The position numbers and the translations under genes are program-made. DNA of 64,000 nucleotides from Olsenella uli (GTDB lineage Bacteria; Actinomycetota; Coriobacteriia; Coriobacteriales; Atopobiaceae), in the NCBI RefSeq assembly GCF_016900775.1, contig NZ_JACJKN010000001.1:124001-188000 (forward strand), in the 5' to 3' direction. The first letter of the stretch is position 1, and every line of letters begins with the position of its first letter. Shown piece by piece: positions 784-57,905 of the stretch. The notes under the pieces were generated by a model. The model was given only the letters and a program-made list of their open reading frames with translations, did not search any database and was not told the origin of the DNA.

Positions 784-976
784 TGCGCAAAAGAGCCGAT
801 GGTGCGAAAGCCAGGGCCGGCGGCGCGCAGTTGGGGCCTTGGTGCGAAGCGTTATGAGGGTCCGTCCTTATAGAGGCTGGAGGTGACCTGGCATTATGTG
901 ATTCCAAATCAGCCGCTACATGAGATGTGTCGGGTTTTGGGCAAAAAAGGCTTCGCACCAAGGGCCTGATTGCGCA
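784..976. repeat. Class II fold-back array, family A, copy 1
   Basis: The unit is TGCGCAATCAGGCCCTTGG followed by TGCGAAG. Two diverged units read forward, with GGTGCGAA at 801 and 841 (40 bp apart). One inverted unit lies at 951-976 and abuts the enolase terminator. The array fills the gap between the enolase 3' end and the phosphofructokinase start. No coding potential is seen here. Confidence 0.75.
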
Positions 977-3399: not shown

Positions 3400-3521
3400 G
3401 GGAGAGTCCTTTCCGTTGGGCGCGGCGGGGGTCGCCGCGCGGATGCCTTCCTCCTACCCAGAAGCCTGTAACTATTTCACGCACGTTCTTCTCGCGTTCC
3501 TCGTCGGCGCGTGCCGGACGA

Positions 3522-8392: not shown

Positions 8393-8394
8393 GC

Positions 8395-8465
8395 GACCTG
8401 ACAAAGGTGACGGGGGCGTTTGTCATGAACATCATGACAAACGCCCCCGTCACCTTTGTCAGGTC
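8395..8465. repeat. Class I palindrome, family P1, copy 1
   Basis: Perfect 34-bp arms (8395-8428 and 8432-8465) around a 3-nt loop. The core is TGACAAAGGTGACGGGGGC. It lies between convergent genes and has no T run. Confidence 0.9.
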
Positions 8466-9792: not shown

Positions 9793-10017
9793 GGCGCAAT
9801 CAGGCCCTTGGTGCGAAGGCCGGGGCGCCGCCGCGCGCAGTCGGGCCCCTGGTGCGAAGCGTTTTTTGGAAAAGCGCCGTTTTTCCAAGGCGTGGGAGAG
9901 CTGCGACCTGGCAAATGCTCGGCTGGCTACTCGCACCACCCGTGAAAACGCTTCGCACCAGGGGCCCGACTGCGCGCGGCGGCGCCCCGGCCTTCGCACC
10001 AAGGGCCTGATTGCGCA
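9793..10017. repeat. Class II fold-back array, family A, copy 2 (near-perfect 67-bp arms)
   Basis: Two forward units (GTGCGAAG at 9811 and 9852) face two inverted units (CTTCGCAC at 9951 and 9992); both pairs are 41 bp apart. The whole left arm, including the 16-bp spacer between units, is complementary to the right arm over about 67 bp. The 88-bp centre holds a small GGAAAA/TTTTTCC hairpin. It fills the icd upstream region, directly after the stop of the next gene (10022). I see no coding frame. Confidence 0.9.
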
Positions 10018-13773: not shown

Positions 13774-13792
13774 GGGTTCTCCGTTTCCGGAC

Positions 13793-13878
13793 GTTGCCTA
13801 TTTGGGGACAGGCCCCTTTTAGGCATGTTTTCTAGCATGCAAACATGCCTAAAAGGGGCCTGTCCCCAAATAGGCAAC
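13793..13878. repeat. Class I palindrome, family P2, copy 1
   Basis: Perfect 38-bp arms (13793-13830 and 13841-13878) with a 10-nt loop. The core is TTTGGGGACAGGCCCCTTTT, then AGGCATG. It lies between the yfbR-like stop (13886) and the trmB start. It resembles REP sequences of the kind moved by RAYT transposases, but no such gene is present in the window. Confidence 0.9.
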
Positions 13879-13885
13879 GGGAGGG

Positions 13886-16261: not shown

Positions 16262-16426
16262 GTGCCTTCCTTCCCCCTGGTGCTTCCTCGTCTGATTGTG
16301 CCACGCACGAGGTCATGTTTTGATGTGCGGCTTGTGAACGGTACCAAAACTGCGCGACCGGACGCGCCTCTCGGCGCGTCGCGGGCCAACGTTTGTCCGC
16401 CGCAGCTGCCACCGCCCGCTTCCCGC

Positions 16427-16624
16427 TGCGAATCTGGTGGTTGTGGCAATTCCCGGCCCGGAGGCGTTGCGCGGGTTGGGGTTATGGCAGAGTCTGGGCC
16501 GCCATAACCCCAAAAAGCGCAGCACATCGAGAAGAACGGCCAGTTGTTGGGTGGCGTCGATTGCCATAACCCCAAATTCCGCGACGCTGTGGCGACGGGA
16601 ATTGCCATAGCCCCCAGATCCGCA
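16427..16624. repeat. Class II fold-back array, family F, copy 1
   Basis: The unit is close to TTGCGGATTTGGGGTTATGG followed by CAAT. Two forward units have TTGTGG at 16441 and TTATGG at 16482, 41 bp apart. Three inverted units have CCATAA/CCATAG at 16502, 16564 and 16605, spaced 62 and 41 bp. The array fills the divergent gap between the pyrophosphatase and EttA genes. The rest of the gap (16262-16426, 16625-16776) shows only a possible TAGACT -10 before ettA. Confidence 0.85.
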
Positions 16625-16776
16625 GCGCGGGGAGGGGCGTGCGGGCCGGGCGCGCCGTCCCCCCGCCTCCCGTGGCGGATTTCTCCTGCAGGCAGCGCGT
16701 TCTTCTCGCCCGGGGGAGGGGGCTGGGATAGACTCGGTGTGACGGTAAGCCCCGCACAAGAGAGGCGAGAAACCCC

Positions 16777-20484: not shown

Positions 20485-20545
20485 TGACAAAGGTGTCAGG
20501 GTCGTTTGTCAGGAAACCTGACAAACGACCCTGACACCTTTGTCA
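20485..20545. repeat. Class I palindrome, family P1, copy 2
   Basis: Perfect 29-bp arms (20485-20513 and 20517-20545) with an AAA loop. The core TGACAAAGGTGTCAGGGTC differs from other copies, with the matching change in the second arm. It begins 23 nt after the dehydrogenase stop. Confidence 0.9.
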
Positions 20546-20558
20546 AGTCACCCATAAC

Positions 20559-23211: not shown

Positions 23212-23286
23212 AAAGGCTGACAAAGGTGACAGGGTCGTTTGTCATGAAAAACATGACAAACGACCCTGTCACCTTTGTCAGCCTTT
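23212..23286. repeat. Class I palindrome, family P1, copy 3
   Basis: Perfect 35-bp arms (23212-23246 and 23252-23286). The right arm runs into the asparaginase gene and supplies its last codons and TGA stop (23278-23280). Confidence 0.9.
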
Positions 23287-31883: not shown

Positions 31884-31962
31884 CAGGGGCGACCTGACAA
31901 AGGTGACAGGGTCGTTTGTCATGATGACAAACGACCCTGTCACCTTTGTCAGGTCGCCCCTG
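31884..31962. repeat. Class I palindrome, family P1, copy 4
   Basis: 39-bp arms (31884-31922 and 31924-31962) with a single-base loop, the longest of the family. It begins at the base after the Nim-like TGA stop and ends four bases before the cysE stop, filling the whole convergent gap. Confidence 0.92.
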
Positions 31963-33528: not shown

Positions 33529-33644
33529 GGGTGCCTCCTTTGGTATGTGTGCTGGCCGCGAGGTGGTCGCTGCGGCGACGCTCGCTGACGATAGGGTGGC
33601 ACGTATAACCCCTGCGCGCAAGTAGGAATTACGGGGTCGAAACA

Positions 33645-33674
33645 TGCCTAAAAGGGGACAGGCCCTTTTAGGCA
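33645..33674. repeat. Class I palindrome, family P2, shortened copy 2
   Basis: 12-bp arms (TGCCTAAAAGGG and complement) with a 6-nt loop. It ends one base before the pth2 stop at 33676. It is a shortened form of the family P2 hairpin. Confidence 0.85.
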
Positions 33675-33675
33675 A

Positions 33676-34110
33676 CTAGTAGAGCGGGAGCTCGCCGGTC
33701 AGGGGGTCGATCGTCTCGGCGGGAAGCGGCTCGAAGGCGAGGCAGGTGTAGGTGGGCTCCCCATGGAACTCGGTGTGTCCGGCGTCGCGCACGAGCGCCA
33801 CCGCAAGGCCGAGCTCGCGCCCGCGCGCGGCGAGGTCGAGCAGCGCCTCCTCGGAGTCCACGTAGACGCAGACCTTGGCCACCCCGGCGTCGAACCAGTC
33901 CGTGAGCGGGGAGCGGTCCGCCTCGTCATGCTCGAGCCACGCCCAGGCGTCCGTCGCGCGGAGCTGCCCCGCGCGGCCCTCGCGCACGAGCGCCATGAGG
34001 GTGGCCTCCACGCACGCGTGGCCCGCCTGCGCGGCAATCTTGCCCTTGCGCATCTTGAGGTCGCGGCGCATGACGATCATCTGCTTCGAGAGGTAGCTGC
34101 TGGACGGCAT
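33676..34110 (-). CDS. pth2: Peptidyl-tRNA hydrolase, Pth2 family
   Basis: Releases tRNA from peptidyl-tRNA. This is the Pth2 fold typical of archaea and eukaryotes, unlike the Pth1 of most bacteria. 144 residues. The signature is KQMIVMRRDLKMRKGKIAAQAGHACVEA region: conserved Lys, then GKIAAQAGHA. VCVYVDSEEALLDLA and ALVRDAGHTEF follow. A separate Pth1 may exist elsewhere; this could be a second enzyme. It is a single gene between the CDF transporter and a P2 hairpin. Confidence 0.9.
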   Translation of the reverse strand: MPSSSYLSKQMIVMRRDLKMRKGKIAAQAGHACVEATLMALVREGRAGQLRATDAWAWLEHDEADRSPLTDWFDAGVAKVCVYVDSEEALLDLAARGRELGLAVALVRDAGHTEFHGEPTYTCLAFEPLPAETIDPLTGELPLY

Positions 34111-39101: not shown

Positions 39102-39126
39102 GCGCGCGACGTGCGGAGGGGGCGCG

Positions 39127-39326
39127 TTGCGAGGGGCGGGGTTGTGGCGCCCGCCGGCGCGCGGGGGTTGCGAAAAACGGGGTTATGGCAATCGGTGCGT
39201 GGCGTCACCTGGGCGTTCTTATAGGCATGTTGCGGGATTTGGGGTAATGGCAGCGCGATTGCTGCCACAGCCCCGATTGAGGCAACGCCCCCGGACCGTG
39301 AATTGCCACGACCCAATTATCCGCAA
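39127..39326. repeat. Class II fold-back array, family F, copy 2
   Basis: Three forward units (TTGTGG at 39142, TTATGG at 39183, TAATGG at 39245; spacing 41 and 62 bp) and two inverted units (CCAC at 39265 and 39306; spacing 41). It fills most of the 325-bp gap between the reactivation gene and metH. Confidence 0.85.
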
Positions 39327-39374
39327 CGGGCGCGCGTTTCCTTGCCGGAAACCATCGGCTGCTAGGATGCTGTC

Positions 39375-47317: not shown

Positions 47318-47393
47318 GGCGACCTGACAAGGGTGACGGGGGCGTTGCCATGGTTTTCATGACAAACGCCCCCGTCACCCTTGTCAGGTCGCC
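47318..47393. repeat. Class I palindrome, family P1, copy 5 (slightly decayed)
   Basis: The arms pair over about 36 bp. The apex has diverged: GTTGCCATG on the left against CATGACAAAC on the right. The core is TGACAAGGGTGACGGGGGC. It starts 10 nt after the permease stop. Confidence 0.85.
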
Positions 47394-48938: not shown

Positions 48939-48975
48939 GGATGCCTAAAAGGGGACAGGCCCCTTTTAGGCATCC
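48939..48975. repeat. Class I palindrome, family P2, shortened copy 3, inside the amino-acid ABC operon
   Basis: Perfect 16-bp arms (48939-48954 and 48960-48975) with a 5-nt ACAGG loop. It sits between the binding-protein stop and the permease ribosome site. Here a hairpin could lower downstream expression or stabilise the upstream message. Confidence 0.88.
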
Positions 48976-51473: not shown

Positions 51474-51706
51474 TGCGCAGTCAGGCCGATGGTGCGAAGA
51501 AACGCGGTTTTGATGCGCAATCAGCGCCTTGGTGCGAAGGCATTTCGCGCGCTCACAAGATGATGGCTGCTCCGCACCTGGCCTTTTGCGGAGACACCGC
51601 CCCTCGAAGCGTCAAAAGAAGCCGAGGAGCCATAGAATGGCTTCGCACCAAGGGGCTGATTGCGCAGACGGCGTCCATTTCTTCGCACCAAGGGCCTAAC
51701 TGCGCA
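51474..51706. repeat. Class II fold-back array, family A, copy 3
   Basis: Two forward units (GTGCGAAG at 51492 and 51532, 40 bp apart) face two inverted units (CTTCGCACC at 51641 and 51681, 40 bp apart). The spacers between units are 15 nt but, unlike copy 2, are not complementary. It fills the divergent gap between engB and the fructosamine kinase gene, ending 15 nt before the latter's ATG. Confidence 0.88.
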
Positions 51707-53844: not shown

Positions 53845-53913
53845 GAGCCCCCCTCTGTTGCGTTTTCCGACAACCAACCATAGCGCAACGTAGCCGATGG
53901 GAGGGCGGGGGCG

Positions 53914-53982
53914 TCCTGACATTGGTGACAGGGTCGTTTGTCAGGTTTTTCCTGACAAACGACCCTGTCACCAATGTCAGGA
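53914..53982. repeat. Class I palindrome, family P1, copy 6
   Basis: Perfect 32-bp arms (53914-53945 and 53951-53982) with a TTTTT loop. The core is TGACATTGGTGACAGGGTC. The right arm supplies the TGA stop (53977-53979) of the AlbA-domain gene. Confidence 0.9.
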
Positions 53983-57577: not shown

Positions 57578-57674
57578 TGCGCTCCCTCCGTTGCGCGGAA
57601 TTTCGAGTAGATAATGGTACGCCATCGGGGTGTTGGCGCACAACGGGGGGCTGCGTCCACGAGCCGTGACGTGG

Positions 57675-57905
57675 TTAGGAAATGCGGGCTGTTGCGCCGC
57701 GCGGCCTTGGCGCGCTTAGAAAATGGGACTCGTTGCAGCCGCCGGCCCTCGCACGCATAAAGAACGGGGCTTGTTGCGCCCCTAAGTCCCCCTGCGGCGG
57801 CTCTGCGGCTCCCCCGACGGTCCTTCTCGGTGCTCCTTCTATGCAACGACCTCGATTCCCTAAGTGCGTTGCCGGATAATCCTGCAACGACCCGGCTTTC
57901 CTAAG
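57675..57905. repeat. Class II fold-back array, family G
   Basis: Three forward units of the form CTTAGGAAAnnCGGG then CGTTGCAG have GTTGC at 57691, 57732 and 57773: exactly 41 bp apart twice. Two inverted units have GCAAC at 57843 and 57884, also 41 bp apart. It fills most of the 504-bp divergent gap between helD and the DUF2264 gene. The rest of the gap (57906-58035) is GC-rich and shows only a GGCGAGAAGAACG word at 57981. Confidence 0.88.

Follow-up and report, generated by a model that had tools for sequence, protein, structure and literature searches.

What kind of element is the row of phased, inverted repeats that lies between two divergent genes at 57674..57905 of the Olsenella uli stretch analysed here (64,000 nucleotides, hereafter the window), and what keeps such rows in the genome? 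A first-pass annotation had proposed that three repeat families in the window, A, F and G, share one build, and had offered three guesses as to their nature: a protein-binding array, a nucleoid anchoring site or a non-autonomous mobile element. Units were read directly in the sequence and were then mapped with position weight matrices built from 293 kb of DNA. In these matrices, the units of all three families are asymmetric, bipartite sites of 23–26 bp (26 bp in family A, for example 784–809, and 23 bp in family G), with the consensus CTTCGCACCAAGGggcTGATTGCGCA in family A, cTGCCAcAACCCCcaATTccGCAACGc in family F and cGCAACGACCgcgATTTtCTAAC in family G. Neighbouring units lie 40/41 or 62 bp apart. 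The window contains three A arrays, two F arrays and one G array. In the family G array (57674..57905), three minus-strand units (57674–57696, 57715–57737 and 57756–57778) are followed by two plus-strand units (57842–57864 and 57883–57905), with spacings of 41, 41, 86 and 41 bp.

The other arrays of the window follow the same scheme. Array A1 (784..976) has only three detectable units, 784–809 and 824–849 on the minus strand and 951–976 on the plus strand, with spacings of 40 and 127 bp; its units are changed in the counterparts of two related genomes, G012 and G026 (the latter Thermophilibacter provencensis), and a third relative, G004, has an internal deletion. Array A2 (9793..10017; units starting at 9793 and 9834 on the minus strand and at 9951 and 9992 on the plus strand; spacings 41/117/41) has complementary spacers as well as complementary units and is absent from G026. 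Array A3 (51474..51706; 51474 and 51514 minus, 51641 and 51681 plus; spacings 40/127/40) has an orthologous array in G026 in which all four units are altered. Both F arrays have five units. F1 (16423..16628; 16423 and 16464 minus, 16500, 16562 and 16603 plus; spacings 41/36/62/41) has left only a remnant in G026, and F2 (39124..39329; 39124, 39165 and 39227 minus, 39263 and 39304 plus; spacings 41/62/36/41) has a near-identical array there.

Several further motifs were recorded in and around the arrays. The 36-bp gap inside the 62-bp step of F1 (16526..16561) contains GAGAAGAAC and a core motif of the CCAGTTG type. GAGAAGAAC is present in 17 of 26 F gaps, with a shuffle expectation of 0.0, and also in 7 of 21 G cores. 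It occurs 20 times in the window (for example at 3485, 5233, 16529, 16699, 39401 and 57986), where base composition predicts 0.17 occurrences, and ten of these copies are intergenic, although 87% of the window is coding by our gene calls. CAACWGG was found in 11 of 26 F cores, 5 of 22 A cores and 1 of 21 G cores (shuffle expectations 0.2, 0.5 and 0.3, respectively). By this test it is not universal, and it was rejected as a conserved core motif of all arrays. A long palindrome, TGACAAAGGTGACAGGG(T)CGTTTGTCA..., has six copies in the window (8393–8465, 20485–20549, 23217–23281, 31889–31957, 47319–47392 and 53911–53981) and represents a separate repeat family, not phased units. Palindromic repeats of the GCCTAAAAGGGG(A)CAGGCCCC type were observed at 13792–13879, 48941–48973 and 33640–33676.

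A whole-genome search that tolerated up to three mismatches in the unit pattern returned 78 A, 82 F and 32 G matches, the G count coming from a stricter pattern and perhaps being low, and reversed-pattern controls returned none for any family; the three families are real. The 293 kb of examined DNA holds 69 arrays (22 A, 26 F and 21 G) of common geometry, which bears out the shared build. A de novo detector set to spacings of 39–43 bp recovered 63 of 68 known arrays, compared with 9, 5, 6 and 4 at four other spacing ranges. An A array consists of two units, a gap and two inverted units, with steps of 40 or 41 bp; an F array consists of five units at 41/62/36/41 or the mirror image, with some units missed in places; and a G array is a 41-bp repeat whose central part varies. 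The central gaps come in steps, at 107, 117/118, 125–129 and 139 bp in family A and at 54, 64/65, 75, 85/86, 96, 106, 117, 127, 137/138 and 159/161 bp in family G. When periods between 8 and 14 bp were scanned, the gap between inverted halves gave a best period of 10.4 bp in family A (n = 22, nR2 17.3) and 10.55 bp in family G (n = 19, nR2 16.8). The gap therefore climbs by single turns of the helix, in keeping with the helical phasing that the first-pass annotation had suspected from the unit spacing. Quantisation at about 10.5 bp, the helical repeat of DNA, points to proteins on one helix face and not to RNA folds. Spacers differ between loci, and the units and their helical spacing are kept.

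Arrays lie between tandem genes in 37 cases, between convergent genes in 18 and between divergent genes in 14 (n = 69). This mix is close to that of all intergenic gaps of at least 150 bp in the examined DNA, arrays included (56 tandem, 23 convergent and 30 divergent). The earlier statement that every array precedes one gene or more is correct for the six arrays of the window and fails genome-wide, given the 18 arrays between convergent genes. With orientation bias absent among the 69 arrays, a promoter, operator-only or terminator reading was rejected.

When 132 genes that adjoin arrays were compared with one another, one cluster emerged with a member beside an A array, a member between two F arrays and a member between two G arrays. 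Sequence similarity unites these neighbours of A, F and G arrays in one paralogous family, with proteins of 340–375 amino acids, and such paralogy explains the diverged common origin that had been suspected for the units. The A-protein matches Pfam DUF559 (E = 1.5e-5), and a weak match to Pfam MTES_1575 was obtained for 11 of 30 relatives. The Pfam scan of the cognate proteins found no transposase domain (DUF559, MTES_1575 and weak others only), PADLOC and NCBIfam scans yielded nothing above weak matches, and a plasmid collection search gave no match. Across 30 sequences, D227 and H253 are invariant and E247 and D262 are conserved at 90% or more; these four positions are candidate catalytic residues. 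A three-protein profile gave 7–17 matches, a few of which may be fragments, in each of the 31 genus genomes searched. Named relatives identify the genus as the one to which T. provencensis belongs, and the family has further members in Olsenella, Gordonibacter, Raoultibacter and Paraeggerthella. Sampling of the class gave 65 genomes with a match to the family out of 149; two of the 65 fall outside the order, and at least five sampled genomes inside the order have no match. No family gene falls in the window among the matches listed for the O. uli genome (G000). The F-type gene of that genome (C1:112986-114290, outside the window) appears to be frame-disrupted near its start, reflecting either a pseudogene or an assembly error; it is open in G026 and G012.

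The first-pass annotation had also suggested looking for a protein gene whose presence follows the arrays, and this family behaves in that manner. Two arrays of the matching family enclose the F gene, and likewise the G gene. At A-type genes only one flank carries an array. Arrays with four or more units were detected in 58 of 180 gene flanks versus 5 of 185 control windows; counted by locus, 40 of 90 had such an array, and 18 of these had one in each flank. A 40–42-bp step was found in the arrays of 32 of the 41 closer loci, 16 of which have arrays in both flanks; three of the 32 are of the 30-bp family, and the remaining nine loci show no array by the 40–42-bp detector. No array was found at 10 of 16 more distant loci, and two further distant loci (L325 and L328) have neither arrays nor homologous flanks. 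At 52 of 79 loci the two sides of the gene share homologous sequence, direct or inverted and up to 354 bp long (42 matches of at least 50 bp and ten shorter). At ordinary genes such homology was found in 3 of 63 cases, all of 23–28 bp, and in mismatched locus pairs in 6 of 79, four of which are alignments of 198–646 bp that look like shared neighbouring genes. Each paralog, as read from its flanks, has its own unit. Other paralogs have spacings that are likewise whole turns of the helix, and the values within the family include 21 bp (L229 and L230), 30/31 bp (L213 and L225–L227), 40–42 bp, 52 bp (L293), 61/62 bp (61 at L297) and 92/93 bp (L289). Over 34 loci the best period of the unit spacings is 10.3 bp (nR2 25.5), in a set that kept three low values (18, 20 and 25) arising partly from low-complexity repeats and in which the loci are related to one another, so that the Rayleigh figures overstate independence.

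In a forward test, the unit TCCAAC..CTAAGC, taken from the gene flanks of G001 and G037, was sought in 31 genomes. It was matched 49 times in G001 (on ten contigs among the matches listed), 20 times in G037, 37 times in G011 and four times in G034, with no matches in controls. In G011 the units occur around its own copy of the gene (C1:54238) and elsewhere; in G034 all four lie on one contig, and no gene of that kind was identified. The other 27 genomes gave no matches. For this one unit type among 31 genomes, repeat abundance appears to follow the presence of the cognate gene, with the four matches in G034 unexplained.

Protein and unit also change together between species. F units number 86 in G026 and 158 in G012; G009 has 53 in a diverged form (control 10), and six other genomes have 1–10 (controls 1–2). 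The A unit of G000 was found in none of the 20 relatives searched, and a changed form of it is present in 48 copies in G026 and 57 in G012. G000 and G026 share orthologous A arrays at two loci, where every unit has changed and the other parts can still be aligned. Correspondingly, the A-protein of G000 is 68–69% identical to those of G026 and G012, which are 87% identical to each other and share one unit; for the F-protein, whose unit is unchanged, the values are 85–86% and 92%. In seven species the A-type gene adjoins the same neighbour, which we take to encode a flavoprotein, and each species has its own unit and array beside the gene. Identity to G000 in the six other species is 69, 68, 49, 46, 45 and 40% for the A-type gene and 97, 97, 93, 91, 95 and 90% for the neighbour, sequence divergence (40–69% versus 90–97% identity) that indicates much faster evolution of the A-type gene. 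Across 29 loci, protein identity correlates with unit similarity (Mantel r = 0.44; 0 of 2,000 permutations), and a sliding-window correlation for a specificity segment gave no clear peak. With gene and unit changing in step, the units form a dialect peculiar to each species.

Two loci show units out of keeping with their genome. At L186 (G009:C18:1827-2046), G009 has one array with the A-type unit of G026 and G012, which possibly arrived by horizontal transfer. At L121 in G004, presumably the eno-pfk gap, an A array is cut to its two outer units, which carry an older CACTATC dialect; the unit of G004's own A-type gene differs from them. To judge from these sequences, the L121 array is left over from an earlier specificity.

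When 11 G000 arrays were compared with T. provencensis, five could be aligned throughout, and the other six were lacking there in part or entirely. In these comparisons no insertion event, clean empty site or target duplication was seen. Arrays decay by deletion, and this, together with the negative result on insertions, argues against a purely selfish mobile element. One A-type array of T. provencensis (G026:C3:66215-67920; L169 3719-5420) is split by a gene in its core, presumably an IS110-family-like transposase. The presence of this IS110-like gene led us to reject the locus as an autonomous transposon of the array system.

The predicted structure of the T. provencensis F-type protein (pLDDT 89.4, pTM 0.87) falls into two parts. 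Residues 180–303 resemble the catalytic domain of I-Bth0305I (3r3p; Z 10.5, 95 of 97 residues) and 3hrl (Z 9.5), so that the C-terminal domain is modelled as an EDxHD/Vsr-type nuclease fold. Residues 1–175 match AbiEi (6y8q) at Z 7.6 over 118 residues, below the level that the tool calls reliable, and Rv2827c (1zel) tentatively at Z 5.7; the AbiEi match covers AbiEi residues 67–195 and not its N-terminal winged helix. The N-terminal part may thus resemble AbiEi antitoxins. A Foldseek search with the whole model found no match among PDB or viral models at E ≤ 0.001.

Taken together, these results make it probable that the arrays serve as serial binding sites of cognate proteins, the members of one fast-evolving, nuclease-fold family whose genes stand beside arrays of their own. 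Of the three original guesses, a putative protein-binding array fits best; the REP-RAYT analogy makes a non-autonomous mobile element a possibility as well. The cognate gene lies next to its own array, as a rule with a copy on either side, and arrays of the same unit are dispersed among other genes. Protein molecules would occupy the asymmetric units on one helix face, in two facing groups around the core, and we infer that the family protein binds the units and may assemble cooperatively on that face. The nuclease domain may cut, or may once have cut, at or near the arrays, and its putative action would spread them or keep them uniform, as is thought of TnpA-REP for REPs. A more specific version, a gene-drive-like system, is conceivable, and we put it forward tentatively: the protein would cut or mark arrays, repair would copy and homogenise them, and an arms race or drive would change both specificities together to give species dialects at fixed loci, as a bacterial counterpart of PRDM9 hotspots, or of REP-RAYT with an unrelated nuclease at its base.

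Alternatively, the proteins could be transcription factors of the AbiEi kind in which the nuclease domain is inactive, and the arrays operators, autoregulatory beside the gene and controlling other genes where dispersed. The 36-bp start-to-start step of the inverted pair bound by Rv2827c (PMC7319586) equals the step of the inverted pair in F arrays, and the N-terminal similarity to AbiEi and Rv2827c is in keeping with such a role. However, the absence of promoter-side bias among the 69 arrays, 18 of which lie between convergent genes, argues against a plain regulon, the putative active-site positions are kept, and arrays are readily gained and lost; we regard this explanation as unlikely. Less likely still are nucleoid anchoring or looping sites bound by a domesticated nuclease with a structural role on DNA. 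Dispersed, orientation-neutral placement between genes and facing groups 5–15 turns apart on one helix face suit such an architecture, but the presence in one genome of several families, each with a unit of its own, and the loss of whole arrays between close species would be odd for a core structural role.

Inverted units at the ends of elements of about 200 bp and paired homologous arrays around a gene recall transposon remnants, MITEs or IS ends. However, spacers are unlike between loci while the units keep their helical spacing, target duplication was not seen in the comparisons made, no Pfam transposase was found in the cognate proteins, and units at fixed loci change with the protein. Classical MITEs or IS ends were rejected on the first three of these grounds, and remnants of ordinary transposons are in general very improbable. 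RNA hairpins such as terminators are scarcely credible: the inverted halves are often perfectly complementary, but RNA folding gives no reason for loop sizes that step by 10.5 nt over 54–161 nt, and a bias towards gene ends is absent.

If binding of the arrays by their neighbouring proteins is the right reading, the REP-RAYT plan would have been arrived at a second time, from independent parts. Orthologous proteins and their altered DNA sites would then form natural series in which the evolution of DNA specificity could be studied, and the reason why bacteria maintain repeats together with nucleases would become testable outside Proteobacteria.

Among known systems, AbiEi binds two 23-bp inverted repeats and Rv2827c binds four, with 13-bp gaps within pairs (PMC7319586). 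The likeness to our family lies in the possible fold of the N-terminal part and in the 23-bp inverted sites; by contrast, the protein described here is fused to a nuclease-like domain, and its arrays number in the tens across the chromosome rather than lying at one promoter. The EDxHD homing endonuclease I-Bth0305I and Vsr-like/DUF559 proteins share the fold of the catalytic domain, and the A-protein is itself a DUF559 match; here, however, there is no intron or intein, and the putative recognition sites are multi-unit arrays on the flanks and genome-wide. In a literature search that lay mostly outside subscription journals, nothing was found that links a DUF559/EDxHD-like protein type with dispersed repeats, and the gene with its dispersed arrays looks like an undescribed gene-and-repeat system. 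The closest resemblance in organisation is to REP-RAYT (PMC2817692), in that a gene is flanked by its own repeat, repeats are dispersed between genes in an abundance that tracks the gene, the gene outpaces its neighbours in evolution, and repeat and protein change together. However, RAYT is an HUH tyrosine transposase (Y1) and REPs are 20–40-bp palindromes with a GTAG head, whereas the protein here has a predicted nuclease fold of the DUF559/EDxHD-like type, its units are asymmetric, helix-phased and 23–26 bp long, and the array-linked family has many paralogs per genome. By this analogy the likeness is one of plan and not of parts, and the protein and the element are unrelated to those of REP-RAYT.
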